Positions 1 through 17,577 of a stretch of DNA of 33,696 nt are shown one piece after another. Both the position numbers and the translations under genes were made by a program. This DNA comes from a virus: IMG/VR virus record IMGVR_UViG_3300009502_000889, positions 1-33,696 of that record. One strand, given 5' to 3'. The notes below the pieces were generated by a model, which saw nothing but the letters and a program-made list of their open reading frames with translations, ran no database searches and was not told the origin of the DNA. Every line of letters starts with the position of its first letter. The stretch's first letter is position 1.

Positions 1-123
1 CAGAACAGCCCATCCCTCCTGACATCTTAGAGAAAATTTAGAGAAAATTTTCAGGAAAAAGGGTGTTGGGTCAGAACAGCCCATCCCTCCTGACATCTTA
101 GAGAAAATTTAGAGAAAATTTTC
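1..123. repeat. 52 bp direct repeat, two copies, with iteron-like 11-mers
   Basis: Bases 1-52 recur exactly at 72-123, giving a 71 bp period with a 19 bp spacer. Inside each copy the 11-mer TAGAGAAAATT occurs twice in tandem (28-38, 39-49 and 99-109, 110-120). The block is AT-rich, non-coding and just upstream of the first gene. Because the window opens on the first base of a copy, more copies could lie upstream. The arrangement resembles initiator or regulator binding arrays (inference); no protein that binds it can be named. Confidence 0.85.
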
Positions 124-127
124 TCTA
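110..127. promoter_or_regulatory. 18 bp perfect palindrome
   Basis: TAGAGAAAATTTTCTCTA is its own reverse complement over all 18 bases. It is made by the last iteron-like 11-mer of the second direct repeat meeting its mirror image; the first repeat copy keeps only the inner GAAAATTTTC. Two bases later the first 14 bp operator-like site begins. It could be a dimer-binding site; there is no run of T to suggest a terminator. Confidence 0.55.
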
Positions 128-128
128 G

Positions 129-142
129 AGAAACCAGTTGCA
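129..142. promoter_or_regulatory. Dispersed operator-like palindrome, site 1
   Basis: AGAAACCAGTTGCA fits the window-wide motif TGMAACYRGTTKCA at 13 of 14 positions (first base A). It lies in the non-coding leader 117 bp before the first gene. A TATAAT hexamer at 221-226 follows, but without a convincing -35 box, so a promoter here is only possible. Confidence 0.65.
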
Positions 143-258
143 AAATGGAGACAATACCCCACATGATGTAGGGGTCGGGTCTGCCATCCAGCGTGTTAGC
201 GCCGTGCCGAAATGGCCGATTATAATAATGCGGGCTCGACCCCAACTGGAGAAACCTC

Positions 259-1293
259 ATGGGTACTCGAAAGCCGAAGCCGCCCATTATGGAGACGGCC
301 ATATCTGCCAAGACGCTCTCGCACATGAAGGCCCACGTCATGGCCCGCGACCTCGGTGTTGACCCCGAGCGTATCGCCCGTGCCTCTGAGAGTGTGACCA
401 AGACCGCCGCGACCCAAAACCCCCTGGTTGCCGTCCGGAAGCGAGCGGTGAAGGCGTTGAGCATCCCTGAGATCGTTGAGCGTCTCGGAATGGGGTATAA
501 GGTCTATGTGTCCGCCCAGAAGCGTTCTCAGTCGGCAAAGCAGCAGACACGGTTCATAGTCCGCACCCACCTCGGTTATCACAAGCATCCTGAAGGAGTG
601 AATGACCTCACATGGGATTGTATGCGTGCCGAAATTGCAATCCGGGCTGACGGCATCATCGAATACCTGATCTCTGGAAAAGACCCTCTGAAACTGACCG
701 GAGCCGACAAGGTGGTAGCTTGCCGGGTGTCTGAACTCATAACCCTCAACCACCTCGTTTGGTCGGTGGCCGACACCATGATCCGGGCAAAGGGGGACGG
801 CTTCGCTACCCTATGCGAACAGCTTCCCGTCTATGATGCCCTCAGAGGGCTCTCAGGCTTCGGCCCGTGCGAGATGGCACGGTTGATAGGGGAATGTGGC
901 GACCTTTGGAACTACCCCTCAGTGGCCGCCCTGTGGGCACGTATGGGCCTTGCGGTTATGCCTGATGGGACAAGGCAACGTCGGGTACGCGGACCCGCCG
1001 CCCTCGACCACGGCTTCAGTCCACGCCGCCGCCGGCAAGCCTTCTATTTCAGCCGAAGCGTCTTCATCAAAGACAGCAACTGGACTGACGTGAAGCACGG
1101 ACACCACCCGGCTGGTGAGTGGCGGCTGCTCTATGACAGGAAGAAAGCCGAGTACCTGGAGCGCGGGTGGCGTTTGAAGCGGGCACACAATGGTGCCCTC
1201 CGGTATCTCTGCAAGTGCATCATCAAGTTCATCTACAAGGAGTGGCTCCGCACGATGCCGAAGCCAGGAAACAGTGGGGCAGACAATGAGTAA
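259..1293 (+). CDS. IS110-family transposase C-terminal-domain-like protein (lacks RuvC-like half)
   Basis: 344 aa. Residues about 195-230 (LRGLSGFGPCEMARLIGECG followed by an aromatic-rich helix ending in ARMGL) look like the helix-hairpin-helix part of the Transposase_20 domain of IS110/IS116 transposases. The C-terminal segment around 313-331 (ALRYLCKCIIKFIYKEWL) fits that domain's terminal helices. I see no N-terminal DEDD/RuvC-like domain, and the serine-glycine motif normally following the HhH is replaced by an unrelated basic stretch (PDGTRQRRVRG). A transposition role is therefore doubtful; DNA-structure binding is a reasonable guess. GGAG lies 9 nt before the ATG. The 3' end overlaps the next gene by 8 bp, so the two are co-translated. 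No inverted repeats or target duplications of an IS are visible around it. Confidence 0.5.
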   Translation: MGTRKPKPPIMETAISAKTLSHMKAHVMARDLGVDPERIARASESVTKTAATQNPLVAVRKRAVKALSIPEIVERLGMGYKVYVSAQKRSQSAKQQTRFIVRTHLGYHKHPEGVNDLTWDCMRAEIAIRADGIIEYLISGKDPLKLTGADKVVACRVSELITLNHLVWSVADTMIRAKGDGFATLCEQLPVYDALRGLSGFGPCEMARLIGECGDLWNYPSVAALWARMGLAVMPDGTRQRRVRGPAALDHGFSPRRRRQAFYFSRSVFIKDSNWTDVKHGHHPAGEWRLLYDRKKAEYLERGWRLKRAHNGALRYLCKCIIKFIYKEWLRTMPKPGNSGADNE

Positions 1294-1870
1294 GCGTGAA
1301 CTGATTAAGGCCGCCTTCGCCGAGTTGCCGAAGACACAGCGCCGTGAGTTTATCATCGAAGGCATCCGTAGCTTCATTGAGACGGCCAGCATCGAGATGA
1401 ACAAGGGGCCGGCAATAGGCACCCGCGTCTTTGCAATCATCGGCTTTGTCGAGATGGGGGGTGAGACTGTTTGTCTGTCGTTGGGGGAGGGCACCTTCGC
1501 CGGCTACCAGACGATGCCGTGGTTAGCACCCGGCAGCACAGACGATGCAATTAAGGCGCTCGGAAATGATCCCGACGATGCTCTTCGGGCCGCATATGAG
1601 GCGTTTGCCGAGTGCGTCCGTCTCAACCCCAAGATCGTCCTGGACCGGGGCGGCGAAGTGTGGGGTGTCGAGTGTTGGTGGTGTCCCCTCGACAGCACGC
1701 AGATGCTGGAGTTCGAGGCAATGCGCGGCGATATCCCGTTCGTCGAAATCACGTTTGAGCGTGATGAAAACCACATGCTGTGTAAGCTCGTCAGTGCCGA
1801 GGACCCATCCGTGGTGCTGTCTGACACCTCGAAGCGGGTGAAACGTCAAAAGCCCGATGTGCCTGCGTGA
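1286..1870 (+). CDS. Hypothetical protein, 194 aa
   Basis: The start chosen is the ATG of MSKRELIK, which overlaps the previous stop (ATGAGTAA), rather than an upstream in-frame codon inside the previous gene. The protein is acidic with a basic C-terminal tail (KRVKRQK). The first 40 residues are predicted-helical by eye, and a Trp/Cys cluster (GVECWWCPLD) sits near residue 130. I recognise no family. Tight overlap with the IS110-like gene suggests a functional pair. The operator-like site at 1878 lies 7 bp after its stop. Confidence 0.7.
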   Translation: MSKRELIKAAFAELPKTQRREFIIEGIRSFIETASIEMNKGPAIGTRVFAIIGFVEMGGETVCLSLGEGTFAGYQTMPWLAPGSTDDAIKALGNDPDDALRAAYEAFAECVRLNPKIVLDRGGEVWGVECWWCPLDSTQMLEFEAMRGDIPFVEITFERDENHMLCKLVSAEDPSVVLSDTSKRVKRQKPDVPA

Positions 1871-1877
1871 GCCAAAA

Positions 1878-1891
1878 TGAAACCGGTTGCA
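1878..1891. promoter_or_regulatory. Dispersed operator-like palindrome, site 2
   Basis: TGAAACCGGTTGCA, with the CG centre. It sits in the 103 bp gap between the 194 aa unknown gene and the LAGLIDADG-like gene. The rest of the gap shows no clear promoter or terminator. Confidence 0.75.
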
Positions 1892-1973
1892 ACACGGCAT
1901 TATATGTTGAGCCAAACGGCAAGTCACACCATCTAATGGGCAATGGCGAAGCCTCAAATCAGTGGAGCACAAA

Positions 1974-2303
1974 ATGGACCGCAACCTTGCTGCTTACTTC
2001 GCCGGAGTGGTGGACAACTCCGGTTACGTGAGCCTGATCGAAACGAAGGGGCGCCCGATGCCGAGCGTCTCGTTCGTGACCTACTATGAAAGCGTTGCCA
2101 AGCTGGCGATGGAATTCTTTGGCTGCGGTCATATCACCGAGAAGAAGGTGAGCAATGAGCGCATCAACCGGCAGGGTGTCCCGATGGATATCCGGTATCG
2201 CTGGTGCGCTTCATGGGCCGAAGCCAAGAAAGTTGCCGGGTTAATTGCACCACACCTTTCTCACTACCAGGAACTGGCCGTGAAGATTGGAGCCCCGGTA
2301 TGA
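1974..2303 (+). CDS. Small LAGLIDADG-like protein, probably catalytically inactive
   Basis: 109 aa. The N-terminus, AAYFAGVVDNSGYVSLIE (residues 6-23), matches the LAGLIDADG helix and following strand of homing endonucleases: F-A-G-V-V-D-N-S-G against L-A-G-L-I-D-A-D-G. Only one motif is present, so it would act as a homodimer. The second acidic residue of the motif, which binds the catalytic metal in I-CreI-type enzymes, is Ser16 here, so cleavage activity is doubtful. A GTGGAG ribosome binding site lies 6 nt upstream of the chosen ATG; an in-frame GTG four codons earlier is really that binding site. The stop overlaps the dUTPase start (ATGA), so the two are translationally coupled. It may be a remnant homing enzyme or a domesticated DNA-binding protein. 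Confidence 0.55.
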   Translation: MDRNLAAYFAGVVDNSGYVSLIETKGRPMPSVSFVTYYESVAKLAMEFFGCGHITEKKVSNERINRQGVPMDIRYRWCASWAEAKKVAGLIAPHLSHYQELAVKIGAPV

Positions 2304-2734
2304 TCGTCGGTATTTCCATGGCCGAGGGTGCTTCACCCCCGGCCTATGCCACGTTAGGCGCGGCTGGTGCCGACCTTCGGGCTTACCTTCCTGATGGTGG
2401 GCTGGCATTCGCACCGGGAGAACGTCGGACGATCTCGACTGGTGTGACCCTCGAAATACCGGAAGGTTATGAGGGTCAGGTTCGTCCAAGGAGCGGGCTT
2501 GCCCACAACAAGGGCATCACGGTCCTGAACACGCCTGGGACCATCGACAGTGATTATCGGGGAGTTGTTGGGGTCATTCTCTACAATGCGGGCCACAACC
2601 AGTTCATGGTAAACCACGGTGATCGCATTGCCCAGATTGTCTTCTGTCCGGTTCAGCAAGTCGTCTTTTCCTTTGGGATGAAAACGGCTACCGAACGTGG
2701 GGTAGGGGGCTTCGGGTCAACCGGTGTAGGCTAG
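2300..2734 (+). CDS. dut: dUTP diphosphatase (dUTPase)
   Basis: 144 aa, the normal size of a trimeric dUTPase. It hydrolyses dUTP to dUMP and pyrophosphate, keeping uracil out of phage DNA and feeding dTMP synthesis. All five signature motifs are visible: AAGADLRA (21-28), RPRSGLA (62-68), GTIDSDYRG (80-88, with catalytic-site Asp83 and Tyr86), GDRIAQ (107-112) and the C-terminal P-loop-like RGVGGFGSTG (133-142). The ATG overlaps the previous stop and has GGAG upstream. The dUMP product is the substrate of the ThyX encoded at 5256. The 3' end overlaps the convergent HTH-receiver gene by 18 bp, with no terminator between them. Confidence 0.95.
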   Translation: MIVGISMAEGASPPAYATLGAAGADLRAYLPDGGLAFAPGERRTISTGVTLEIPEGYEGQVRPRSGLAHNKGITVLNTPGTIDSDYRGVVGVILYNAGHNQFMVNHGDRIAQIVFCPVQQVVFSFGMKTATERGVGGFGSTGVG

Positions 2735-3415
2735 TGCCGCCGGAAGAAGAGACTGGATGGTTACTTTTAGTTGTGCTGGATCGACTGGCTTAGGAAGTAG
2801 CGGAAAGCGAGCATCTTGCATCTTCTGCTTCCGGGCCAGGGTGATCTCACCGGAGATCATGAGGACAGGCATATCAGGGTAGACCTTCCTCAGTCTTACC
2901 GCCGTGTCAACACCGTCTAGCTCCCCTGGGAGTGAGAAGTCGATGATGGCCAGTCCGGGCCTCTCGGTGGTAATGCGAAGGGCCTCTTCGCCGTCAGACG
3001 CCCCAATTGTAGGCAGGTTCCAGTGGCCGATTACCGCCCGGGTTGCCTTTAGGATTGCCCGATCATCGTCAATCACCAGGACCGTTGGAATAGCCGTCAA
3101 GACATCTGGAGCTATTGGTGTTGAACAGTGGTAGCCCGCTGATGACATCAAAACCCGGCCATTGTTATCAACCAGAGCAAGGCCAACCGGTGAGTTCTGG
3201 ATTGCCGAAAATACGGTCATCCATTCCGGGTTTGAGCTTCCCCCCATCATCAACCGCATTCTGGATAGCGCCTCAGTGCTCGGGGCATCAACGCCACGTT
3301 CCCATCGGGAGACCGTCTTTTGGTTGACTCCGAGGAAGTTGGCAAGGTCAAACTGTGACAGCCCTGTTGCCTTTCGGAACGCCTTGATATCGGAGAGTGG
3401 GTCCAGGTCTTCCAT
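2717..3415 (-). CDS. HTH (XRE/CI-like)-receiver domain fusion, response-regulator-type transcription factor
   Basis: 232 aa. Residues about 7-56 are an XRE/Cro-CI helix-turn-helix (core TGLSQFDLANFLGVNQKTVS, then RWERG). Residues 65-100 (GLALVDNNGRVLMSSAG) look like a short PAS-type strand-loop. Residues 110-227 are a complete receiver domain: acidic pocket Asp116-118 (VIDDD), phospho-acceptor Asp159 (AIIDFSLPG), switch Ser188 (MISGE) and conserved Lys209 (LPKP). The DNA-binding domain precedes the receiver, the reverse of most response regulators, and is of phage-repressor type. It is transcribed just after the histidine kinase with an 11 bp gap, so the pair is almost certainly cognate. It probably switches DNA binding by phosphorylation; the target is unknown, and the dispersed 14 bp palindromes or the repeats at 4882-4901 are candidates. 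Confidence 0.88.
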   Translation of the reverse strand: MEDLDPLSDIKAFRKATGLSQFDLANFLGVNQKTVSRWERGVDAPSTEALSRMRLMMGGSSNPEWMTVFSAIQNSPVGLALVDNNGRVLMSSAGYHCSTPIAPDVLTAIPTVLVIDDDRAILKATRAVIGHWNLPTIGASDGEEALRITTERPGLAIIDFSLPGELDGVDTAVRLRKVYPDMPVLMISGEITLARKQKMQDARFPLLPKPVDPAQLKVTIQSLLPAALAYTG

Positions 3416-3426
3416 GATGGCCCCTT

Positions 3427-4836
3427 CTATTTCACAAGAGGTAGTCGAAGCGAGAATACCGACCCCTTGCCCTGTGTCGAGGTTAGCTTGATGTCAGTTC
3501 CCAGAACTTGCGCCGTTTTCCGTGCTATTACAAGTCCTAAACCAGACCCCTTCTCACCCTGGCGAGCTTTGTTATTCAACTGAACAAATGGGTCAAATAT
3601 GGCGTCTAGCTTATCAGGGGCAATTCCGATGCCGTTGTCTAAAACTTGTATCTCAATCTCATTGCCCCGGTGACGGCACCCTACAAGAACTGTCCCACCC
3701 CGTGAGAATTTAATGGCATTTGATACAAGATTTGAAAGAGTGCGGTATAGGATGTCTGCGTTCGTAACGATCGTTACACTTACGGGGATGACGATCTCAA
3801 GCCGGCAGTCGTTGGCACTGGCGTGCCGTGTGAACTGATCTGAGAGGCGGATGAAGATCATGGCGAGCGGGTGCGGTTCCCGGGGCCATAGGGCGCTTCC
3901 AAATTCATACCGGTTGATGTCGAGGAAGTCGTCAAGCAGCTTTGACATTCGATCTGATGATACCCTTGCCTCATTGAGTAGGTCGCCCACATTCTCCCCG
4001 TCTTGTTCAAGGTCAAGCTCTATTGCTGTAATGAGCAACCGGAGGGCGTGTGCAGGTTGGCGAAGGTCATGGGCACCAGCGGCAAAAAACTGACGGCGGT
4101 AGGTAGCCTCAAGGATGGCCTTTTCCTTTTCCTTGATAAGCTCTCCTGTTGCAGCTTTGATGCGGGAGAGAAGTCGGTCTTCTGTTGCCTCATTCAAAAT
4201 TATGATCAGGGCCAGCGTTAAGATTATGCGGCATATGGTAGTTAGTGCGTAATAGAAAGCCAAGACACCCCCTTGCTCGTAGTAGGATATGTCCGGTATG
4301 GGCACAAGTTGAACATAGACGCCACGAACAATAACGACTAGAGTAGTCAAAGTGACTGCAAGTATAATCATACTAAGTCCCACCCCATACGCCCCTCTTC
4401 TAATTCGAGTGGCAATCAAAAAGTAGTTTGCGGTGCCTAGAAAAAAGAAATGAGCGACGCATAAAATAGTGATACGAGTAGCTATGTCTTGTGGTTCAAA
4501 TCCGAACTGGTAATAAAACGCCGCAAACCACCCAATTACGATGGGATACATGACATAAAACATCCGCCGACCGCATAGCCACAAAACTCCTGCATGGAGA
4601 AACGCTGATGCGATAATAACTATGGTGTTCCCGACGAAGCCCTGGTTCACATGGTATATCGACCCCTTTGTAAGAACTATGATCAGGCCGACGCCATAAA
4701 GGAGGTCGTGCGCAGCAAACAGTAGAAAACCTTGTGCCCCCTTCTTATATGCACATAGGGTCAGGAGCACTAGACCGCAGGCTATAGCAACGATTGAAGA
4801 GGCAAGTCCGAAGGTACTCACATCGAGACGGATCAT
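3427..4836 (-). CDS. Membrane sensor histidine kinase with seven predicted TM helices
   Basis: 469 aa from the chosen start. The first 215 residues contain about seven hydrophobic segments, a membrane-embedded sensor with almost no periplasmic domain. A linker helix leads to HisKA with the phospho-acceptor His256 (AGAHDLRQPAHALRL). The HATPase domain has N box (NLVSNAIKFS), G1 (DNGIGIAPD), F box (FDPF) and G2 (GSGLGL). It ends after this domain with no receiver, which is supplied by the next gene. The ATG four codons upstream gives MEGKMIRLD; I prefer the inner ATG because GGAGGG sits 4 nt before it and the candidate promoter would leave almost no leader for the outer one. Base composition is AT-richer than the structural genes, suggesting separate acquisition. 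The sensed signal is unknown. Confidence 0.9.
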   Translation of the reverse strand: MIRLDVSTFGLASSIVAIACGLVLLTLCAYKKGAQGFLLFAAHDLLYGVGLIIVLTKGSIYHVNQGFVGNTIVIIASAFLHAGVLWLCGRRMFYVMYPIVIGWFAAFYYQFGFEPQDIATRITILCVAHFFFLGTANYFLIATRIRRGAYGVGLSMIILAVTLTTLVVIVRGVYVQLVPIPDISYYEQGGVLAFYYALTTICRIILTLALIIILNEATEDRLLSRIKAATGELIKEKEKAILEATYRRQFFAAGAHDLRQPAHALRLLITAIELDLEQDGENVGDLLNEARVSSDRMSKLLDDFLDINRYEFGSALWPREPHPLAMIFIRLSDQFTRHASANDCRLEIVIPVSVTIVTNADILYRTLSNLVSNAIKFSRGGTVLVGCRHRGNEIEIQVLDNGIGIAPDKLDAIFDPFVQLNNKARQGEKGSGLGLVIARKTAQVLGTDIKLTSTQGKGSVFSLRLPLVK

Positions 4837-4857
4837 TTTACCCTCCATGTTCCTAAA

Positions 4858-4901
4858 ATTGTATCTTTCTTAACTATTTCGGTTAGGCGTCGTTAGGCGT
4901 A
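4858..4901 (-). promoter_or_regulatory. Candidate kinase-operon promoter with tandem 10 bp repeats
   Basis: Reading the minus strand, TACAAT (4858-4863) is a good -10 box. At a 17 bp spacing the -35 position falls on CTAACC (4881-4886), a poor match to TTGACA. This position overlaps two tandem 10-mers, GTTAGGCGTC and GTTAGGCGTA (plus-strand 4882-4891, 4892-4901). Repeats one helical turn apart over a weak -35 are typical of response-regulator sites. Autoregulation by the HTH-receiver protein is inferred, not shown. Confidence 0.45.
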
Positions 4902-5013
4902 TCAGGTGCCTCGGGACCGTGCCATAAGTAGGCTATCGAACGCCAGCTAAAAGGCGAGCCGCTCTTGAGAATAGGCGCGGCGCACGGAAACAAGGGCAAA
5001 AGGGGGTTAGGGT

Positions 5014-5259
5014 ATGGATAACGTGACCGGAACACTCGCAGTCGTTGCCGCAGTCAGCTACCTCGTTGCGGGTCGCCAAACCATCATGCTCTACTTCCTT
5101 ACGCGCCGGGGGAACGATGGGATGCTCTTGTGGGCAGAGTATCGCCGTGGCTGTATGTATGCCACGCTCCTGGTCTGGGTTCTCGCTTGTCTTTGGCCCG
5201 TCCTGCTGGTGGGTCAAGTTGTTGCCAAAACCGTCCAGTCCATGGAGCAACCCCAATGA
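5014..5259 (+). CDS. Small membrane protein, 81 aa
   Basis: It has two hydrophobic segments (about residues 5-22 and 49-70) separated by a charged loop containing RRGNDG and EYRRG. The short polar N-terminus and the spacing fit a two-helix inner-membrane protein. It diverges from the histidine kinase across a 177 bp intergenic region, and its stop overlaps the thyX start (ATGA), so it is the first gene of the thyX unit. A holin-like size and topology is possible, but nothing else supports lysis. The ribosome binding site is weak (GGGGG 9 nt upstream). I recognise no family. Confidence 0.65.
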   Translation: MDNVTGTLAVVAAVSYLVAGRQTIMLYFLTRRGNDGMLLWAEYRRGCMYATLLVWVLACLWPVLLVGQVVAKTVQSMEQPQ

Positions 5260-6254
5260 AGTTGGTTCAGCCGCGTGCGTTCATCATCGGGGAGACGACA
5301 ATCGTCGTTCCCGGGATGCGTGACTTCCTTGACGAACTTGGAGCTTCCGCGTTCCCGATCAATCACAGCATCCCACCGGGCCAGTTTATGGCCGAGGTAG
5401 CTGGACGGACCTGTTACAAGTCCTTCCATGTTGGGCTCAATCCCAACGTAAAGTCCATCCGTGCGGACAGTTCCGAGTACATGGCCAACGTGATCGCTTC
5501 GGCTCACGGGTCAGTGCTTGAACACGCCACCGTGAACTTCGGGCTGGCGAACGTGTCTCGCATTCTCACACACGAACTGGTGCGTCATCGTCAAGGTGTG
5601 GCAATCAGTCAGGAGAGTATGAGGTTTGTCCGTCTGACCGACCTCGGGATGTACTATCCAAGCGCATTCGAGGTGGAGGAGATCGAACACTTGTACGACA
5701 GCATTCCACCACTTGAACTTCTAGCCCCCGGCGAGATTATGTTCGACACGGAAGGCAACCCGGTGTGGTATCGCCCAAGCGCGGAAGGGGGTGGCCACTT
5801 CGGCCCCGACGCCTTCAACAAGCTGACCCCCGAAGAGATGAAGGTATGCTGGGTGTCCGAGCGCGTCCTGATGATGTTGACCATCTTCAATGACGAGGTT
5901 GCTGCCGCTGAGGACAATCAGTTGACCATGGCTGGTCTGCTTCGGCTTGACCACTCGAAGTCGTTCACGGCCAAAAAAAAGGTGACCTCGGCAATGCGTC
6001 GGCTTGCCCCGGCTGGCGTTGCAACCTGCTTGGTGTGGACGGCAAACCACCGCACTATCCGGTTCGTTATCCAACAGCGGACCAGCCGTGGTGCTGAGGA
6101 AGAGATACGGGTGTTGTTCCACGACATCTTCAAGCAGGTCCATAATCGGTTCCCGGACCTGTATGCTGATGCCCACTTTGAGTATGACGACGAGGAGGAC
6201 GAGGCGAAGCTCAACGCCAACTACGCCGTCGTGTTCGAGCACCACAAGGTCTAA
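5256..6254 (+). CDS. thyX: Flavin-dependent thymidylate synthase ThyX
   Basis: 332 aa. It converts dUMP to dTMP using methylene-tetrahydrofolate and FAD-bound hydride. Visible family signatures are GSVLEHATVNF (85-95), the substrate/FAD motif RHRQGVAISQES (110-121) followed by MRFV, and a C-terminal NHRTIRFVIQQRTSRGAEEE segment resembling the conserved N-R...R...A-E-E-I-R helix. Spacing from RHR to the motif Ser is eight residues, one more than the textbook RHRX7S. The protein is about 100 residues longer than common ThyX, with extra sequence around residues 135-195. The start is the ATG of MKLVQPRAF, overlapping the previous stop; an upstream in-frame start lies inside the previous gene. With dUTPase it makes a phage dTMP supply route. 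Confidence 0.93.
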   Translation: MKLVQPRAFIIGETTIVVPGMRDFLDELGASAFPINHSIPPGQFMAEVAGRTCYKSFHVGLNPNVKSIRADSSEYMANVIASAHGSVLEHATVNFGLANVSRILTHELVRHRQGVAISQESMRFVRLTDLGMYYPSAFEVEEIEHLYDSIPPLELLAPGEIMFDTEGNPVWYRPSAEGGGHFGPDAFNKLTPEEMKVCWVSERVLMMLTIFNDEVAAAEDNQLTMAGLLRLDHSKSFTAKKKVTSAMRRLAPAGVATCLVWTANHRTIRFVIQQRTSRGAEEEIRVLFHDIFKQVHNRFPDLYADAHFEYDDEEDEAKLNANYAVVFEHHKV

Positions 6255-6255
6255 C

Positions 6256-6269
6256 TGAAACCAGTTTCA
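6256..6269. promoter_or_regulatory. Dispersed operator-like palindrome, site 3
   Basis: TGAAACCAGTTTCA, with both half-sites TGAAAC. It starts one base after the thyX stop and ends 14 bp before the start of the next gene, so it fills the whole gap apart from the ribosome binding site. Confidence 0.8.
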
Positions 6270-6283
6270 AAACGAGGGATGCA

Positions 6284-6505
6284 ATGAAATCGTTGAAGCA
6301 CTCGGAAGTCCAGGCGTTCTCAAATTGGGTAGGCCGCGTTGGTACGATCCTGCCGAACGCCGGATACCACGATGTCCTCCGCGTCGAAGTCAACGGCCAG
6401 CTCGTTGTTTACAAGAAACGCAAGGGCAGCAGCCTCGAAACCTGCCAACGCGGGTCGCGGCTTGTCAATGAATGGCGGTCGTGTGAACAACAGATCGCAG
6501 CTTGA
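6284..6505 (+). CDS. Hypothetical protein, 73 aa
   Basis: A small basic protein (MKSLKHSEV..., ending SCEQQIAA) with a central strand-rich stretch (DVLRVEVNGQLVVYKKRKG). The GAGGG ribosome binding site lies 4-5 nt before the ATG. It is placed directly behind an operator-like site and followed 5 bp after its stop by a terminator hairpin, so it closes the thyX transcription unit. No family recognised. Confidence 0.65.
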   Translation: MKSLKHSEVQAFSNWVGRVGTILPNAGYHDVLRVEVNGQLVVYKKRKGSSLETCQRGSRLVNEWRSCEQQIAA

Positions 6506-6510
6506 CGGGG

Positions 6511-6530
6511 AGGGGGCTTCGGCCCCCTTT
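6511..6530 (+). terminator. Intrinsic terminator with UUCG tetraloop
   Basis: The stem AGGGGGC/GCCCCCT (7 bp) closes a TTCG loop with the stable C-G closing pair, followed by TTT and then ACCCTTT. The T-run is short, so termination may be partial. It lies between the 73 aa and 94 aa genes. Confidence 0.7.
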
Positions 6531-6547
6531 ACCCTTTGGAGGATACC

Positions 6548-6832
6548 ATGAGAGACCGGCCAGCACCGTCCGCAAGTGCCAAGCCTTCTGTTTTTGTACC
6601 GGAACAGCCAACGCAATGGCCTGCCGGTTCCCTGGTATTCGCACACAACACGGCTCATTTGCGTGAGCCTGATGGCAGGTCCAGCTTCAAGGGCTTGTTG
6701 GGGTGTGTTTACAGAGACATAGCAAGTGGGCGGAAGGACTACGCAGTGTGGCGGTATAATAAGCAAGCGGCCTCATTTACGTTTGTGGGTCATTATGTAA
6801 CATGGCATGAGGGAATGGGCCGTCTCGACTAA
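6548..6832 (+). CDS. Hypothetical protein, 94 aa
   Basis: The start is the ATG behind TTTGGAGGATACC; an in-frame TTG upstream is part of the ribosome binding site. The N-terminal 25 residues are Pro/Ser/Ala-rich and probably flexible. The rest is strand-rich with many aromatics (KDYAVWRYNKQAASFTFVGH). It follows a terminator closely, so it is either read through or has its own weak promoter. No family recognised. Confidence 0.6.
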   Translation: MRDRPAPSASAKPSVFVPEQPTQWPAGSLVFAHNTAHLREPDGRSSFKGLLGCVYRDIASGRKDYAVWRYNKQAASFTFVGHYVTWHEGMGRLD

Positions 6833-7065
6833 CGGCGTGTTCGCTGAAATCAAAGTATACATTATGAACTACTTGGTGGACCCCAAGCAGGGCGCCCCCT
6901 ATTCGTAAGGTTAGCGGGTGCGTGATGTACTCAGGTGAGGCAAAATGCAACAGAATGCTACGAAAAGTGATTGACGAACCTCAAGGAAGTGGTATGGTTA
7001 GGCCGGATTTGGGGCGGCAAGCGCCCATAGCCTGATCGACAAAACTCAATGAAGAGGACTTCCCG
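6833..7065 (+). other. Non-coding gap before the structural operon
   Basis: This gap separates the metabolic genes from the head genes. It holds a candidate sigma70-type promoter (6971-6998) and a small hairpin, GGGCG-GCAAG-CGCCC (7012-7026), without a T-run. A 36-codon open frame (6925-7035, MYSGEAKCNRM...) runs through the promoter and has only a poor ribosome binding site, so I do not call it a gene. Confidence 0.6.
6971..6998 (+). promoter_or_regulatory. Candidate sigma70-type promoter for the head genes
   Basis: TTGACG and TATGGT are separated by 16 bp, each matching the consensus at five or four of six positions. It is the best promoter-like pair in the longest gap upstream of the structural run, with a leader of about 60 nt to the next ATG. 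No operator-like site of the 14 bp family lies in this gap. Confidence 0.45.
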
Positions 7066-7524
7066 ATGCTCGAATATACTCCCGCTGGGCAATTGCAGCC
7101 ACTGAAGCGGACACCTCCCGCCTCCACATTCACGGTGGAGCACCTAACCGAACTTAAAGATGTGGAGAAAGATGTAATGCGTGACCGCGTTGCATATATC
7201 CACGTCACAGGGTGCAACCCATCCCACCTTCGTAAGATCACCCAAGATTTCCTGGCCGTGATGACATCCTTCTTCAAAGGACCGCTGCCTGAGCCAAAGG
7301 TGGGTCCAATTGTCATCAACCCAGACGTGCTTGAATTTCTTGACATCGAAGCACACCCGCTTGTGAAAAAGGTTAATGAGTTCTACCGTAGGGGATACCG
7401 GATTAATGTTCCCGGTGGTGAGCGGAGGCGGTATAGCGCGGTTCGTATGGAGGGCGCTATAAACGGAAAGCGGTCAAGGATCACTGTGCAGTCTGATGGC
7501 TCTGTTCTTGAGGGATGGGCCTGA
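7066..7524 (+). CDS. Hypothetical protein, 152 aa
   Basis: The first gene after the candidate late promoter, with GAAGAGGA upstream. The N-terminus is Pro-rich. The middle contains a helical DVEKDVMRDRVAYIHVTGCN segment, and the C-terminal third is basic (FYRRGYRINVPGGERRRYSA, ENGKRSR-like). It overlaps the next gene by 10 bp. Its position before an HTH protein and the portal suggests a packaging-related or early regulatory role, but nothing in the sequence proves it. Confidence 0.65.
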   Translation: MLEYTPAGQLQPLKRTPPASTFTVEHLTELKDVEKDVMRDRVAYIHVTGCNPSHLRKITQDFLAVMTSFFKGPLPEPKVGPIVINPDVLEFLDIEAHPLVKKVNEFYRRGYRINVPGGERRRYSAVRMEGAINGKRSRITVQSDGSVLEGWA

Positions 7525-7868
7525 AGGTGAATGATCTCGCAAAGTTCGCTCCCCCTAAAGGCACGAAAGGGCGCCTGCTCCTCAGACTTCTATTAATTGG
7601 GGATCAGGTTGGGCCAGTTGAGGCATTCTATCGTCTCAACCTTCCCACCCTTGCTGCTAGGGTGAGCGAGCTTCGCAAACTGGGCTGGCCTGTACGAACT
7701 ATCGAAATGCCCCATCCAACCCTTGCAAATGAAGATGTAACCTACTATCTTTTAGATCAGCACTTCCGATCGTGGCTGTCTGCCCACCCGGGCGCTTCTC
7801 CGAAGGATTATCCCGACAGTGATGGCCGGGGTAAGTTTACAGATAGGGGCGAAGTCACCCAGGTCTGA
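7515..7868 (+). CDS. Winged-helix/HTH_39-like protein, 117 aa
   Basis: Residues about 15-65 (GTKGRLLLRLLLIGDQVGPV..., then LAARVSELRKLGWPVRTIE) have the pattern of the phage helix-turn-helix domain HTH_39, in which a helical R-x-S-E-L-R-K-L-G-W-P-V motif is the recognition region. The C-terminal 40 residues are polar and low in structure. A small-terminase-like or regulatory role is possible because it sits immediately before the portal, but the large terminase is not next to it. Its TGA stop forms the first three bases of operator-like site 4. Confidence 0.6.
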   Translation: MGLKVNDLAKFAPPKGTKGRLLLRLLLIGDQVGPVEAFYRLNLPTLAARVSELRKLGWPVRTIEMPHPTLANEDVTYYLLDQHFRSWLSAHPGASPKDYPDSDGRGKFTDRGEVTQV

Positions 7869-7879
7869 AACCAGTTGCA
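7866..7879. promoter_or_regulatory. Dispersed operator-like palindrome, site 4
   Basis: TGAAACCAGTTGCA. Its TGA is the stop codon of the upstream HTH_39-like gene. It lies 40 bp before the portal start. Confidence 0.8.
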
Positions 7880-7919
7880 AAATCCTCAATGACCCACCTC
7901 TGGCCCATTGGGGATTGGT

Positions 7920-9680
7920 ATGTCTGTCACCATAAAAGCGCGTCCAGCGTCCAATCGTGCGACCACCGGCCGCAAGCGCCGGAAGGGTGTCCCCGAGACG
8001 ACTGATGTCCATGTCAGGGCTCTGAAGGAGTTCGTGGCATCGCAAAGCATGGATGATCCTTTCGACCTTTACTACGCTGGCGGGCAGACGGGTGTCCCAG
8101 GTACTAAATGGGTTGTAAGGCAGCCGCCATACTCGTTTAACACGCTTATGCGTGTCCCCTACGAGAACTCCATCCTCTTGAGTTGTATTCGGGCTATCGT
8201 CACAAATTGCGACGGCCACGGTTACACCATGGAGTACATCGGGCCGAGTGGTCAGCACTCCTGCCCGGCAGCAGTCAAGGAAAAGGCTGTCCTGCAAGAC
8301 CTGCTCGACCACCCCACCTATGATATGACCTTCCAGACCTTGCGTGAGCGTATCCGCGAGGACTATTGGACTGTCGGCAACGCATTCATCGAAATTGGCC
8401 GGGGTAAGGACGGGCGTATCGTCTCCGTCAATCACATTCCTGCCTACATGATGCGCGTCACCGGGCCGGACAAAGAGCACACCACCTTCACTTACCCGAT
8501 GCCCCGTGACGGGAACCCCAAGGCTACTGCGCGCTTGTCGCGTCGGTTCCATCGGTTCGTCCAGATGTACGGCATCGAGCGGGTGTTCTTTAAGGAGTTC
8601 AACGACCCGCGCAAGATCAACCCCCAAAATGGCATGCCCAATGATGGGTTGGCCCCGGAAGATTGCGCCACCGAGATCATCCACCTCAAGTTCTACACCC
8701 CGTTTAGCATGTATGGTGTCCCGCCTTGGGTTGCCAACATGCCTTCCGTGCTGGGCACCCGGCAGGCCGAACTGGTGAACCTGGACTTCTTCCAAGAGAA
8801 CGCCATTCCGGCGATGGCCCTGCTGGTCAGTGGCGGCCAGTTGACCGACGAGACAGTTCAGGAAATTGAAGAGCACTTCAGCGTGGTGCGTGGGCGCGGC
8901 GCAATGAACCGGGTCCTCGTGTTGGAAGCCCTCGGGGACATGACCGGAGCGTCTGAGACCGGCACCGTGCCGACCCCGAAGGTTGAGTTGAAGATGCTGC
9001 AAGGTGAGCGACAACAGGACGCGATGTTCCAGGAGTTCGATAAAAATGGTCGGATGCGTATACGCTCTAGCTTTCGGCTTCCTCCTGTGCTGCTGGGTGA
9101 GGCAAATGACTACACCTATGCAACCGCCAAGGTCAGCTTCGAGATCGCCGAAAGTCAGGTGTTCGCCCCCGAGCGCACCAAAATGGATGACGTGTGGAAC
9201 AACCAAATACTCACCACCTATCAGCCCCAGTTTTGGCGCTTCCGTTCCAATCCCCCTCGAATGGTTGATCCCGATGACGTAGTGAATGCCATCAACGTCT
9301 TCGACAAGGTTGGCGCCTTGACCCCCAACACTGCAATCAGGCTCTACAACGAGAGCTTTGATATGCACATCGACACCATCGACCAACCATGGGGCGACGT
9401 GCCGATGCAGTTGCTTGTCGAGTTTGCAACCAATGGCACGCTGATCGGCTTCGACGACGTGAACGACCCCGAGCTTGCCCAGCCCGATGCGGGCGGTGGC
9501 ACGCCGGCTGATGCCAAGCAGCAACCCCGACCGTCCTCACCGAAGGAGGACACCACTCTCGACGCCCTTCACGCGATGCGGCGAACCATCCGTGAGTTTC
9601 GGGCAATAGCATCCAAGATGGACCGCCAGGGCCGTGATGCAAAGGGGCACGACAGTGGAAACCGCCCTCCTCAGTCTTGA
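7920..9680 (+). CDS. Phage portal protein (PBSX/HK97-type)
   Basis: 586 aa. It forms the dodecameric DNA channel at the capsid vertex, where terminase and connectors dock. Recognisable portal-family stretches are MRVPYENSILLSCIRAIVTN, DYWTVGNAFIEIGRGKDGRI, the IIHLKFYTPFSMYGVPPW segment (PBSX-type portals have the same H-x-K...S-x-Y-G-x-P-x-W pattern), and LDFFQENAIPAMALLVSGG with FRLPPVLLGEANDYTYA for the wing/crown region. The C-terminus is a Pro/Gly/Asp-rich tail. The start is ATG with GGGGATT upstream; a TTG four codons earlier is less likely. It overlaps the head morphogenesis gene by 26 bp. Confidence 0.92.
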   Translation: MSVTIKARPASNRATTGRKRRKGVPETTDVHVRALKEFVASQSMDDPFDLYYAGGQTGVPGTKWVVRQPPYSFNTLMRVPYENSILLSCIRAIVTNCDGHGYTMEYIGPSGQHSCPAAVKEKAVLQDLLDHPTYDMTFQTLRERIREDYWTVGNAFIEIGRGKDGRIVSVNHIPAYMMRVTGPDKEHTTFTYPMPRDGNPKATARLSRRFHRFVQMYGIERVFFKEFNDPRKINPQNGMPNDGLAPEDCATEIIHLKFYTPFSMYGVPPWVANMPSVLGTRQAELVNLDFFQENAIPAMALLVSGGQLTDETVQEIEEHFSVVRGRGAMNRVLVLEALGDMTGASETGTVPTPKVELKMLQGERQQDAMFQEFDKNGRMRIRSSFRLPPVLLGEANDYTYATAKVSFEIAESQVFAPERTKMDDVWNNQILTTYQPQFWRFRSNPPRMVDPDDVVNAINVFDKVGALTPNTAIRLYNESFDMHIDTIDQPWGDVPMQLLVEFATNGTLIGFDDVNDPELAQPDAGGGTPADAKQQPRPSSPKEDTTLDALHAMRRTIREFRAIASKMDRQGRDAKGHDSGNRPPQS

Positions 9681-10686
9681 GACGTTGGCCCTCCTACAGC
9701 CGTGGGGGGACCAGCACTCTTTTGATGCTCTTCTGACCGAACTTGATTGCATCGGCATGCTGGCGCGTCTCGATACCCTGATCCGTCAGAAGGGTGGGGA
9801 AGTCCCGGATGAGGGGGAGATTGAGGAAGCTGCCAACACCCGGGATGAGCACGGTTCACCGTGGCTCCGGGGCTACGAGGCCGAACTAACTGCCATCTTC
9901 CTGCAAGACTACTGGGACCGGATGCAGACCTCCTTGGCGAAGTTTCGCTTCGAGATGAACTACAGTCGTCCAGATGTCACGCGCGCAATCAACGAATTGG
10001 ATGCTGCCATTGATGGCATGAGGGTCTTAGACCAGGACGTGAAGAAGGAGACCAAGGCCCGGATAGCTGAGATCATGAAGGCAGGCTTCGACAAGGGGAG
10101 CAAGGGGCAGAACCTTGATAGCAGCTACGTCGCGTCACATAGCCGCCTCATGGTTCAGGACGGCCTTTGGGAGAGCCTGGGGTTCTACCTCCGTGAGTTC
10201 TTTTACCGCTTTGTCGCCCCGAAGGTCCGCAAGGAGCTTGAGGTAGTGTTCGACGAAAAAATTGTCCAGAAGGTAACAGATACAAGAAAGGTGCTTGAAC
10301 TTCTAGCCAATCCATCCTATGTTACAGCTTACATGGCGATCATGGCCAACGTGGCGGCCCAGCGCAGCTACAATTACGGCTTCCTGACAGCCATCCAGGC
10401 ACGAGGTGTCCGGGTATTCCGGCTCGTCGCGGTCATCGACAACCGAACGAGCGACATCTGCCGCGCACTCAACGGCACAGAGTTTTTCGTCTCCGATGCC
10501 CTTCGGTTGATCGAAAGAGCTTCAAACCCTCAAATCCCAACAGCGGCAACGACCGTAACACCCTGGCTCCGGGCTGAAACGCTTGAACCCATGTCGGTTC
10601 AGCAGCTTGTAGCCGCAGGGGTAATGGTCCCGCCGTTTCACGCAGATTGCCGCACCCACCTCGAAGAGGTTAAGGCGTCAATTTGA
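9655..10686 (+). CDS. Head morphogenesis protein, Mu gpF/SPP1 gp7-like
   Basis: 343 aa from the GTG start, which has AAAGGGG 7 nt upstream; ATG/GTG codons 18-21 bp earlier are less well placed. The C-terminal half holds the MuF domain signature: DNRTSDICRALNG (from about 262) and PPFHADCRT (326-334). In this family the Asp, Cys, His and Cys-Arg residues are the conserved core. These minor capsid proteins sit on the inner side of the portal and are often injected or bind DNA. The N-terminal half is helical and charged. The TGA stop is shared with operator-like site 5. Confidence 0.9.
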   Translation: METALLSLETLALLQPWGDQHSFDALLTELDCIGMLARLDTLIRQKGGEVPDEGEIEEAANTRDEHGSPWLRGYEAELTAIFLQDYWDRMQTSLAKFRFEMNYSRPDVTRAINELDAAIDGMRVLDQDVKKETKARIAEIMKAGFDKGSKGQNLDSSYVASHSRLMVQDGLWESLGFYLREFFYRFVAPKVRKELEVVFDEKIVQKVTDTRKVLELLANPSYVTAYMAIMANVAAQRSYNYGFLTAIQARGVRVFRLVAVIDNRTSDICRALNGTEFFVSDALRLIERASNPQIPTAATTVTPWLRAETLEPMSVQQLVAAGVMVPPFHADCRTHLEEVKASI

Positions 10687-10697
10687 AACTGGTTTCA
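10684..10697. promoter_or_regulatory. Dispersed operator-like palindrome, site 5
   Basis: TGAAACTGGTTTCA, the reverse complement of site 3. Its first three bases are the stop codon of the MuF-like gene. It lies 11 bp before the start of the protease gene, overlapping nothing else but its ribosome binding region. Confidence 0.8.
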
Positions 10698-10708
10698 GGG
10701 ACGGGGCT

Positions 10709-11281
10709 ATGTCAGAGCGTCGGAACATCACGTTTGCAATCAAGTCAGTTGACCAAGCTAAACAGCTTGTCACTGGCATGGTGTATGCGCCGATGGTTAT
10801 CGACACGACTGGCGAGTTCATGCTTCCCGAAGACCTTGAACTGGCCGCCCATCGCTTCCTACAGATCGACCTATCCAAGTGCGTTGATACCCAACACAAC
10901 AATGTCCTCAACGGGTCCTACCCGGTCGAGAGCTACATCGCTCGCGGAAACCCGGAATACCCGGAAGGCTCGTGGGTGGTCACAATCAAGGTCCCGGACA
11001 AGGACCTCTGGAAGCAGATCGTCGATGGTGAGATCAACGGTTTCTCATATGAATGCTACGTCACCCTAGTTCCACATGCCGTCGAATACCTCGTCACCCG
11101 GGATCATGTCGGGCTTACTGAGGAAACTGATGGGCACGCTCATATCTTTTTCGCCCAGGTAAATGAGGCTGGAAAGATCGTCTATGGCAAGACCGAAATA
11201 GTCACCGAGCATGATCACCAGATCGTTTGCTCTTCGCGGACTACGACCGATTACGGTCATAGTCATCGTTTCTTCATCTGA
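10709..11281 (+). CDS. XkdF-like prohead protease with His-rich YmaF-like tail
   Basis: 190 aa. Residues 1-125 match the XkdF/Peptidase_S78_2 pattern: GMVYAPMVIDTTGEFM, AAHRFLQ, DTQHNN (His63), VES (Glu74) and a G-E-I-N-G-F-S motif (Ser113). These would cleave scaffold and capsid during maturation; His63 and Ser113 are the likely catalytic pair (inference from the family). Residues 140-190 carry three H-x-H motifs (DGHAHIFF, TEHDHQIV, YGHSHRFF) spaced like the YmaF family, suggesting a metal-binding appendix fused to the protease. Start ATG with GGACGGGG upstream. An 11 bp gap separates it from the scaffold-like gene. Confidence 0.78.
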   Translation: MSERRNITFAIKSVDQAKQLVTGMVYAPMVIDTTGEFMLPEDLELAAHRFLQIDLSKCVDTQHNNVLNGSYPVESYIARGNPEYPEGSWVVTIKVPDKDLWKQIVDGEINGFSYECYVTLVPHAVEYLVTRDHVGLTEETDGHAHIFFAQVNEAGKIVYGKTEIVTEHDHQIVCSSRTTTDYGHSHRFFI

Positions 11282-11291
11282 GGACCATGTG

Positions 11292-12920
11292 ATGCGACCG
11301 ATCCCCCGGACCTTTAAGGCAGTCGCAGTCGCTCAGACTGACCCGGACCCGCGTTTCATTTCGCTGGTCAAGGTCGGGGCGAACCAGACGCCGTTCCGTG
11401 CCCTCAAGTCTGCCGTGAAGGATGAACTCGCCATGATCGTCTTGAAGGGGGAGGGGGCTTCCGTTGTGGGCTTTGCGTTCCCGGCCGCCAGCTTCACCAC
11501 CGCGACAGTGAAGGCTTTCATGGATGACGGTGGTTACTCCGACTATGCGATTATCGCTGGTGCGGATTACATCCGTGTGAAAGCAGCCGATGCTGTTGGT
11601 GGCAATGACCAGCCCGGTGAAGCCCCTGCGGGCTCCCGTGAGATTGCCTTGAGCGGTGGCGTGGTCGTGACCGTCATCACCAACAAAGCTCCCAACCCGG
11701 ACATCGCGGGCAACACGCCCTCCATGATCACGTCCGCAACACCCGTTCGTACCAAGGAAGATGAGCCCGCAGAGCGTGTGAAACGTGACTTCACGGCTGC
11801 CGAACGTGCAACCGACGCCAGTTCAGGCGCGGCTATGCCTGATGGCTCATTCCCCATCGAAAACGGTTCCGATCTCGAAAATGCTGTCCGGGCGATTGGC
11901 CGTGCCAAAAACCCGGCGGCGGCAAAGCGTCACATTATCTTGCGGGCACGGTCCCTCGGCCTGACCGCTAAACTCCCGGAGGACTGGAAAGTGAGCAAAA
12001 AGGACGAAGAGCAGGCCGCCGCAGCGAAAGCCGCTGGCAACAAGCTGCGTAACAAGCCCGCCGATGCTGACGCGGAGGCGGCTGAAATGGGTGTGCCGAA
12101 TAGCGGTGGCGAAGCGGGTGCTGTTACCCAATCGTCCAGCGACAACCCGGAAGACGGTACGGGCGAAGGCTTGCCGTCTGGTGCAAGTGTCCCCCACCCG
12201 GCCACGACTGGTAACGACGGAACGGGTGAGGGCATCGGTACTCGGGGCGGCCCGTCCGTGATTGCGACCCCCGGTTCAACCGGCCCGCAGGATGCTACCG
12301 GCGCTGCCATTCCTTCTCGGGGTGCCCCCTCGAAGATTGGCAAAAAGTTCGACGATTGGTCGGAAAGGATGGCCAAGCCAACTGCCTTCTCCGATGCGCT
12401 GGAAAGCAAAGCGGATGGTGCTCACCCGGACCTCCACGGTCTTACCCGCTCCCTTCATGATGTAACCAAGGCGTGTGTTGCCAAGGGTGATTATGAGGGC
12501 GTGAAGAAGGCAGCCGGCGAGTACGCCGATCTCGTGACCAAGATGGGTCAGGTGTTTGACGGTGCCCGTTCCGCCAAGCGTGCCAAGTCCGACCTCGACG
12601 CCTTCCAGAGCAAGGTTTTCAACGACCAGTCGAACGACACCATTGTCGTTCTCAAGGCCGTTTCGGACCTGAGCGCCAAACTCGATACCGCTCTGCAACT
12701 GGTTTCAAGTCAGAAAGCCGACACCGACGCCAAAATCCAGGAAGTCAAGGCGGCGGCTGAAGCTGTGAACGTCATCGTCCAGCGTGGCGCACAGGCTGGT
12801 GACGAGGCGGTTTCCGCCAAAAAGGAAGATGCGCCTGCTTCTGCTTCGGACTTCGTTCGCGACCTCCGTATCCGTTCTCAGTTTGGGCAACCCCCGGCAA
12901 CCCTCTCCCGCAAAAAGTAA
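11292..12920 (+). CDS. Scaffold-like/prohead-associated protein with DUF6582-type motif
   Basis: 542 aa. The N-terminus (RFISLVKVGANQTPFRALK) resembles the L-V-x-x-G-A-N segment that follows protease domains in XkdF-type proteins. Around residues 200-235 is a motif common in phage prohead proteins (AAMPDGSFPIENGSDLENA, then RAKN and AAKRHI). Residues about 284-352 form three imperfect 22-24 residue repeats rich in Gly, Thr and Pro (D-G-T-G-E-G...), surely disordered. The C-terminal 150 residues are helical with a coiled-coil-like stretch near 450-505. The capsid gene that follows lacks an N-terminal delta domain, which supports a separate scaffold. The start MRPIPRTF is chosen with GAGGACC upstream. 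Site 6 of the operator family is inside its coding region. Confidence 0.65.
   Translation: MRPIPRTFKAVAVAQTDPDPRFISLVKVGANQTPFRALKSAVKDELAMIVLKGEGASVVGFAFPAASFTTATVKAFMDDGGYSDYAIIAGADYIRVKAADAVGGNDQPGEAPAGSREIALSGGVVVTVITNKAPNPDIAGNTPSMITSATPVRTKEDEPAERVKRDFTAAERATDASSGAAMPDGSFPIENGSDLENAVRAIGRAKNPAAAKRHIILRARSLGLTAKLPEDWKVSKKDEEQAAAAKAAGNKLRNKPADADAEAAEMGVPNSGGEAGAVTQSSSDNPEDGTGEGLPSGASVPHPATTGNDGTGEGIGTRGGPSVIATPGSTGPQDATGAAIPSRGAPSKIGKKFDDWSERMAKPTAFSDALESKADGAHPDLHGLTRSLHDVTKACVAKGDYEGVKKAAGEYADLVTKMGQVFDGARSAKRAKSDLDAFQSKVFNDQSNDTIVVLKAVSDLSAKLDTALQLVSSQKADTDAKIQEVKAAAEAVNVIVQRGAQAGDEAVSAKKEDAPASASDFVRDLRIRSQFGQPPATLSRKK
12694..12707. promoter_or_regulatory. Dispersed operator-like palindrome, site 6 (intragenic)
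   Basis: TGCAACTGGTTTCA within the coiled-coil codons (LQLVSS) of the scaffold-like gene, 280 bp before the capsid gene. It is the reverse complement of site 4. Confidence 0.6.
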
Positions 12921-12973
12921 CCGTGGTCCGAGCGTAGTTGCCGGATACACCACCTAACAAGGAGCATGTTAAA

Positions 12974-13939
12974 ATGGCCCGTGACCTCTCCCGTAAGGCG
13001 GATATCGCCCTCGCTGATCTGAACAGCAACGGTGGTATTCTGATGCCGGAACAGTCGGATACTTTCGTCCGTCTGTTGCTTGACACCCCGACCCTGTTGA
13101 ACCAAGTGCGTTTCGTTCCGATGAACGCCCCGATCATGTATGTCAACAAGATCGGTTTTGGTTCGCGCATCCTTACCGCTGCCAACGAACTCGGTGGCGC
13201 CGGTCTGAACTCTGACCTGTCTGTTGACAGCAATGATGGCAACAACAGCCGTTATGTCGCTGCTAACCAGCGTGCAATCCCGACCCTGGAGCGCATCGAA
13301 CTCCAGACTTCGGAAGTCATCGCCGAAATTCGTATCCCCTACGAGGTGATCGAGGACAACATCGAGCGTGGCGACATCACCAACACCTTGCTCCAGTTGA
13401 TCGCCGAGCGTGCGGCGCTTGACCTGGAAGAGTTGCTGATCCTGGGCGGCACCAACAGCGCCGACCCCTACCTGTCGTTGCAGACAGGGGTCCTGACCCG
13501 TATCTCCTCGAACGTGGTGAACGCGAACGGCCAGCCGATCTCTGTTGGCCTTTTCAACAACCTGAAGAAGAGCCTGCCCACCAAGTACCGCCGTAACCTC
13601 GGCGTCATGCGGTGGTTCTTCTCCATGGACACCGAGAGCGATTACCGCGTCCAGGTTGCCTCCCGCATCGGTACGCTGGGCGACGACACCCTGACCGGCA
13701 ATGCCCCGCTCAAGGTGCTCGGCGTCCCGCTGGTCGGCGCGGCCTTGATGCCTGTTACCCAGGGCATCCTGACCAACCCCCAGAACATCCTGTTTGGTAT
13801 TCAGCGGGATGTGCGGATCGAAACTGACCGCAACATTCGGTCGCGTGAAGTGGTCGTGGTTATGACCGCCCGTATCGCTCTGCAAATCGAGCAGGAAGAT
13901 GCGTGTGCGATGGCCGTGAACATTGGTTCGGCCGTGTAA
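12974..13939 (+). CDS. Major capsid protein, HK97 fold
   Basis: 321 aa. The pattern is that of HK97-fold capsids near PBSX XkdG: an early LLLDTPTLLNQVRFVPMNAP segment, KIGFGSRIL, then the spine-helix region ELQTSEVIAEIRIPYEVIEDNIERGDI, AERAALDLEELLILGG, and C-terminal P-domain strands (GILTNPQNILFGIQRDVRIE, VVVMTARIALQIEQEDACAM). There is no N-terminal delta domain. The start is ATG behind AAGGAG; an upstream in-frame codon would add twelve polar residues before this ribosome binding site. It is followed by a strong RNA hairpin, consistent with control of its high expression. Confidence 0.93.
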   Translation: MARDLSRKADIALADLNSNGGILMPEQSDTFVRLLLDTPTLLNQVRFVPMNAPIMYVNKIGFGSRILTAANELGGAGLNSDLSVDSNDGNNSRYVAANQRAIPTLERIELQTSEVIAEIRIPYEVIEDNIERGDITNTLLQLIAERAALDLEELLILGGTNSADPYLSLQTGVLTRISSNVVNANGQPISVGLFNNLKKSLPTKYRRNLGVMRWFFSMDTESDYRVQVASRIGTLGDDTLTGNAPLKVLGVPLVGAALMPVTQGILTNPQNILFGIQRDVRIETDRNIRSREVVVVMTARIALQIEQEDACAMAVNIGSAV

Positions 13940-13960
13940 TCTGACCACCGGCACCACACA

Positions 13961-13992
13961 TAGTGTAGCAGTCAGAAATGGCTGCTACACTA
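13961..13992 (+). other. RNA hairpin with GAAA tetraloop after the capsid gene
   Basis: A 14 bp stem (one T-G wobble) closes a GAAA loop, GNRA type. There is no T-run, so it is not a classic terminator; it ends 5 bp before the ribosome binding site of the next gene. A role in 3' end protection or processing of capsid mRNA, or in damping the next gene, is inferred. Confidence 0.75.
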
Positions 13993-14010
13993 CAGCCAGA
14001 GGATAGAGTG

Positions 14011-15300: not shown

Positions 15301-15353
15301 ACACAACACTGGGGCCTTAAATCTTAACCCCGGTAACTAGAAGGAAGTGTGTC

Positions 15354-15602: not shown

Positions 15603-15646
15603 CACGCCCTGTGCGAGGCCCTCGGGCCAGCAGTCGGGACGTGTGG

Positions 15647-15679
15647 CGGGAGAAGGGATGCCCCTCCTTCTCCCGTTTT
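15647..15679 (+). terminator. Rho-independent terminator between head and tail modules
   Basis: Perfect 10 bp stem CGGGAGAAGG/CCTTCTCCCG with a 9-base loop, then TTTT. It is the strongest terminator in the window and separates the head genes from the connector and tail genes. Confidence 0.88.
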
Positions 15680-17574: not shown

Positions 17575-17577
17575 CTT

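Follow-up and report, generated by a model that had tools for sequence, protein, structure and literature searches.

Two-component pairs are already known in phages. The Mycobacterium prophage prophiGD05-1 carries a complete histidine kinase together with a DNA-binding response regulator near its structural genes, and the genome of the Microcoleus cyanophage My-WqHQDG encodes a histidine kinase followed by a receiver gene. A related situation is found in phiCDHM1, where the agr genes, including the kinase AgrC, form a sensor kinase cassette on the phage that is low in GC and originates from a host (PMC3901668). Complete pairs of sensor kinase and regulator are uncommon on phages, and the pair described here departs from these examples in the make-up of its regulator. 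In prophiGD05-1, the regulator is of the OmpR type, with the receiver first and a winged helix at the C-terminus, and the kinase has a HAMP domain. The receiver of My-WqHQDG is a stand-alone domain devoid of a DNA-binding part, and phiCDHM1 relies on peptide quorum sensing and has no response regulator on the phage (PMC3901668). In our phage, by contrast, the kinase is accompanied by a receiver that is joined to an XRE-type HTH.

The phage genome and the module

The window, by which we mean the whole stretch of DNA that was analysed, is a 33.7-kb virus record that matches a longer one, IMGVR_UViG_3300022555_000027 (G001, 96,269 bp), from end to end at 99.8-99.9%, with window positions 1-16626 corresponding to G001 79644-96269 and positions 16456-33696 to G001 1-17241. 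Since the ends of G001 have 171 bp in common, with one mismatch, the genome is complete-looking at approximately 96.1 kb. It encodes a portal, a capsid, a tape measure, a DnaB helicase, a DNA polymerase and a primase as well as a UvsX-like recombinase, a ribonucleotide reductase and a ParB-domain methyltransferase. Among the proteins of the phage (n=105), 31 are held in common with Rhizobium phage L338C, 18 with Agrobacterium phage JP1 and 12 with Stenotrophomonas phage DLP5. Because of this ranking of the three cultured relatives that were compared, an alphaproteobacterial host is likely.

Several features outside the module deserve mention in their own right. The frames of the ribonucleotide reductase (1153 aa, G001 42746-46207, plus strand) and of the terminase (1115 aa, G001 49561-52908, plus strand) exceed the profile or the genes of relatives by about 400 residues, such that inteins or other insertions are likely. 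Two TnpB/OrfB-type genes of the IS605 family lie at G001 60916-62103 (plus strand) and 76925-78157 (minus strand). At window 259-1293 (plus strand), a protein of 344 aa matches NCBIfam NF052498 (TIGR-Tas RNA-guided endonuclease) with its C-terminal half at E=6e-13, which is below the curated cut-off, and it also has a weak Transposase_20 match. It is preceded by tandem repeats at window 1-123 (G001 79620-79766), which comprise about two copies of a 71-bp repeat. This may be a Nop-domain or TIGR-like system, though described TIGR arrays differ from this short array of identical copies. Just upstream of the dUTPase gene, window 1962-2303 (plus strand) encodes a small protein that matches a PHROG of HNH endonucleases at E=2e-6.

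The features of the module and its flanks are as follows, in window coordinates.

2300..2734, plus strand: flanking dUTPase (Pfam dUTPase, E=3e-27)
2717..3415, minus strand: response regulator of 232 aa, composed of XRE HTH, truncated linker domain and receiver (Pfam and alignment)
2744..3082, minus strand: receiver domain, residues 112-224, with Asp159, Ser188 and Lys209 (Response_reg)
3137..3226, minus strand: residues 64-93, piece of the C-terminal domain typical of the parent family of XRE regulators (aligns with L035, L038, L039, L041, L056 and a protein of phage DSS3_MAL1)
3257..3388, minus strand: XRE/HTH_3 DNA-binding domain, residues 10-53 (Pfam HTH_3, E=4e-9)
3427..4836, minus strand: sensor histidine kinase of 469 aa, composed of membrane sensor, HisKA and HATPase_c (Pfam above cut-off, active-site motifs)
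3436..3759, minus strand: HATPase_c catalytic domain (Pfam, E=2e-26; N, G1 and G2 boxes)
3904..4098, minus strand: HisKA dimerisation and phosphoacceptor domain, His256 in HDLRQP (Pfam, E=8e-10, and motif)
4180..4836, minus strand: multi-pass membrane sensor region at the N-terminus, residues 1-219 (hydropathy peaks)
4858..4863, minus strand: -10-like TACAAT, putative operon promoter (read from the sequence)
4882..4900, minus strand: ACGCCTAAC as a direct repeat, the two copies 10 bp apart, upstream of the kinase gene; the regulator may bind here
5256..6254, plus strand: flanking thymidylate synthase ThyX (Pfam Thy1, E=3e-30; ortholog in L338C)

The ATG of the regulator lies 11 bp past the stop of the kinase, and because of this short gap we regard the two genes as an operon. 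Shine-Dalgarno sequences accompany the operon genes, and the regulator gene and the convergent dUTPase gene overlap at their 3′ ends by 18 bp. The ACGCCTAAC repeats overlap the -35 position of the TACAAT box, which was not picked up in a scan for consensus promoters. A tandem run of the length of these repeats was reached in 6 of 2000 shuffles, and no further copy of the repeat is present elsewhere in the 96-kb genome. The candidate repeats suggest autoregulation, and there is no sign of a phage-wide regulon. A 14-mer common to the kinase promoter and contig 64059 was dismissed as chance, 16 of 200 shuffles giving 14 or more. Searches of the window for Rfam families and tRNA returned none. Divergent from the kinase, over a common intergenic region of about 177 bp, window 5014-5259 (plus strand) encodes a predicted membrane protein of 81 aa, which could be a co-regulated partner.

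The two proteins

The kinase combines the HisKA histidine with a complete HATPase domain, as in canonical two-component systems. Both Pfam matches are above their cut-offs, and the HDLRQP histidine, the N box LSNLVSNAIKFS, DNGIGI and GSGLGL are all found, so that an earlier note on this DNA, which had read a complete histidine kinase from the sequence, is confirmed on this point. The start at 4836 was preferred over an upstream ATG at 4848 because it has a GGAGGG 4 nt upstream (4841-4846) and because the N-terminal MIRLDVST aligns with the beginning of a related kinase (L078) and of a GGDEF protein (L077), which begin at the same point. Counted from this start, the phosphoacceptor is His256. 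The seven membrane helices that had been proposed for the kinase are plausible, though unproven: six membrane stretches are clear in the hydropathy profile, and the seventh is weaker. The membrane sensor belongs to no Pfam family and has no match at E<0.1 in 72,556 plasmids; it displays weak full-length similarity to multi-pass histidine kinase and GGDEF membrane proteins of alphaproteobacterial genomes. The kinase core falls into the group of HDLRQP kinases, with 38-41% identity to proteins of Rhizobium and Ensifer. Nine plasmid-borne relatives were examined, and most of them are membrane or PAS hybrids that carry the receiver in the same chain.

In the regulator, the matches to Response_reg (residues 112-220, E=1e-15) and to HTH_3 are likewise above cut-off. 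The receiver has the acidic pocket (Asp116-118), Asp159, Ser188 and Lys209 of canonical receivers, and it is thus complete, as had been stated before. The domain order is reversed relative to OmpR- and NarL-type regulators, the receiver being C-terminal, and the HTH is of the XRE type, such that the earlier view of an N-terminal XRE HTH in place of a C-terminal winged helix holds. An XRE-type HTH at the N-terminus is also what characterizes CI/C-type repressors. The regulator was at first described as having the shape of a phage repressor; more exactly, an XRE front part of about 93 residues, rather than a whole CI-like repressor, precedes the receiver. Phage_CI_repr scores 13.7 bits, under its cut-off of 22 bits; there is no Peptidase_S24 match that would indicate a repressor dimerisation and cleavage domain, and the C-terminal domain is the receiver by Pfam.

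The front part is informative with respect to origin. Residues 10 to about 93 can be aligned with XRE regulators of Alphaproteobacteria that stand alone and measure about 195-220 aa, as well as with one protein of phage DSS3_MAL1, and the similarity runs beyond the HTH into the initial 30 or so residues of the C-terminal domain of this family. By eye, residues 64-93 look like a PAS-like beta-hairpin, of the kind formed by the initial strands in a PAS fold; Pfam calls no PAS at these residues. As judged from the alignments, the regulator is a chimera, in which the front 93 or so residues of the alphaproteobacterial XRE family are retained and the remainder of the C-terminal domain is replaced by a receiver. 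An AlphaFold model calculated without an alignment had a mean pLDDT of 51, with the HTH helices alone fairly confident, and was not used for fold searches.

Among NCBIfam models, the receiver scores best against that of hybrid kinases of the NahK/ErcS type, at 61 bits compared to 36 for the next model. The corresponding family, NF041832, matches the kinase with 171.6 bits (E=3e-50) and the receiver with 61.4 bits (E=8e-17) as separate proteins, the curated cut-off of 400 bits not being reached. In trees, the receiver grouped with non-hybrid receivers in one sampling, and in another it fell, weakly supported (69/81), among the hybrids. The two proteins may derive from a single hybrid kinase, as the profile match favours, with tree support for this being weak and varying with the sampling.

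Close homologues of the whole regulator were absent from genome contigs, viral contigs (except those of the same phage), plasmids and phages in pattern searches, the reach of which is close relatives, and none was found at E<1e-14 in 289 genomes of the class of genome G002, with few candidates scored per genome. Two plasmid matches of 82% coverage each were rejected, since one (H41) is a hybrid kinase and the other (H42) spans two unrelated neighbouring genes. No other fusion of XRE and receiver was encountered in the collections searched, though the searches were not built to enumerate architectures; the architecture is suggested to be rare. Defence-system models gave weak matches to HTH or ATPase domains only.

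Origin and possible role of the module

The location of the pair inside a phage genome, as the earlier note had it, is confirmed by the near-identical 96.3-kb contig, with phage genes on both sides. The note was also correct in that the module is AT-richer than its surroundings (local GC 0.48-0.53 vs about 0.57) and opposite in strand, both genes lying on the minus strand and the flanking dUTPase and ThyX genes on the plus strand. At 0.51, the GC3 of the kinase is the lowest among 44 genes (0.67 +/- 0.05), and that of the regulator, at 0.60, is less extreme. In L338C, the gene order is dUTPase, hypothetical, glutaredoxin, hypothetical, ThyX and, further on, portal and capsid. Our phage has dUTPase, ThyX, portal and capsid in this order, with kinase and regulator between dUTPase and ThyX, and neither protein has a match in L338C, JP1 or DLP5. 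From the opposite strand, the kinase GC3 and the absence from three relatives, we infer that the module is an acquired cassette, and its acquisition looks recent.

Our preferred explanation, which we place slightly on the probable side, is that this acquired two-gene phosphorelay cassette is cargo of the tailed phage of about 96 kb and likely has its own promoter and host or lysogen genes as targets. Both proteins have intact catalytic or receiver residues, they are encoded in one operon on the opposite strand, and they are embedded in the phage genome; the pair is intact and unusual, and it most likely functions as a signalling cassette. In such a cassette, the membrane sensor would respond to an envelope or membrane-associated cue, upon which His256 would autophosphorylate and the phosphate would pass to Asp159. 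The receiver, which would occupy the place of the C-terminal (probably sensory) domain of the parent XRE family, would when phosphorylated alter the dimerisation of the XRE head and in this way DNA binding. The likeliest site of the regulator would be its own promoter, with the repeats at 4882-4900, and this would result in autoregulation. As to other targets, host genes or genes of a plasmid-like lysogen would be more likely than a main lysis/lysogeny operator. Provided that the pair functions, the phage comes equipped with a membrane sensor and a transcription switch of its own, and host or environmental signals could feed directly into phage or lysogen gene expression.

How else might the module be explained? 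The earlier note had considered a host segment picked up at the edge of a prophage, and the shift in composition would agree with such a border or with an assembly artefact. However, two assemblies agree across the module, the phage genes are collinear with L338C on both sides, and the genome is complete-looking with its 171-bp end redundancy. The prophage edge is thus ruled out by the 96-kb genome and by synteny, and border segment and artefact taken together are highly improbable. A host two-component operon that was recently picked up and is carried passively, or has decayed, without a role for the phage, would be in keeping with the atypical GC3 and with the module having been seen in this phage alone. 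Recent acquisition is compatible with such non-functional cargo, though the frames are intact, with all catalytic residues, and the proteins are identical in two assemblies; furthermore, no bacterial parent with the XRE-receiver arrangement was found. We consider this quite unlikely.

Another alternative, in line with the earlier note, is that the phage uses the regulator as its own CI/C-type repressor, with the kinase making the maintenance of plasmid-like lysogeny, or the expression of late genes, dependent on a signal. Among the proteins of the 96-kb genome, the regulator alone contains HTH_3. The phage also has the gene content of a phage-plasmid, with partition and resolution genes (a ParA-like ATPase and, after it, an RHH protein at G001 68629-69470, plus strand, and a serine resolvase at G001 55520-56446, minus strand) and no match to PF00589, the tyrosine integrase, in the genome. 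DLP5, a distant relative with 12 of the 105 proteins in common, was isolated as a phagemid and is temperate (PMC5834331), and DLP3 forms lysogens (PMC7326821). On the basis of these genes, the missing tyrosine integrase and the two DLP phages, a plasmid-like prophage is plausible, lysogeny of this phage itself being putative. Against a repressor speak the foreign composition of the cassette and its absence from L338C, JP1 and DLP5, for whose life cycles it is therefore dispensable. Moreover, it resides in the nucleotide-metabolism and structural arm instead of adjoining the ParA or resolvase genes, and the candidate operator has no second copy in the genome. In our view, such a repressor is rather unlikely, and it is unlikely that the lysogeny repressor is a response regulator in the strict sense that phosphorylation by a phage membrane kinase, and not RecA-driven cleavage or a peptide, decides on the dormancy of a prophage in plasmid form.

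Comparison with known regulators

The preferred reading of a cargo cassette with host or lysogen targets has a precedent in phage phiCbK, insofar as a phage XRE protein, TgrL, can act on host promoters (PMC10688885). TgrL is likewise an XRE protein of an alphaproteobacterial phage, and it regulates host genes; it differs in that no receiver has been reported for it, that it belongs to a different XRE cluster and that it is expressed early in infection (PMC10688885). The arrangement of an N-terminal DNA-binding domain and a C-terminal receiver is also seen in archaeal LtrR and FilR1, but these are cellular proteins of archaea with a (w)HTH of a different type (PMC5847659).

With the NahK/ErcS hybrid kinases (NF041832), the pair has in common the HDLRQP motif and the best profile match of kinase core and receiver. 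In the hybrids, kinase and receiver form one chain, whereas here the receiver sits on a separate XRE protein. Closest to the front of the regulator are the alphaproteobacterial XRE regulators (such as L035, L038, L041 and L056) and the DSS3_MAL1 protein (QGH74812.1), in which the HTH and the next 30 or so residues (SPxxVxLxD...RLLAAS) align with residues 10-93. These proteins retain a C-terminal domain of their own and lack a receiver, whereas the phage regulator carries a receiver instead. A receiver in place of the C-terminal part of an XRE protein offers evolution a simple way of putting a repressor under the control of a signal.
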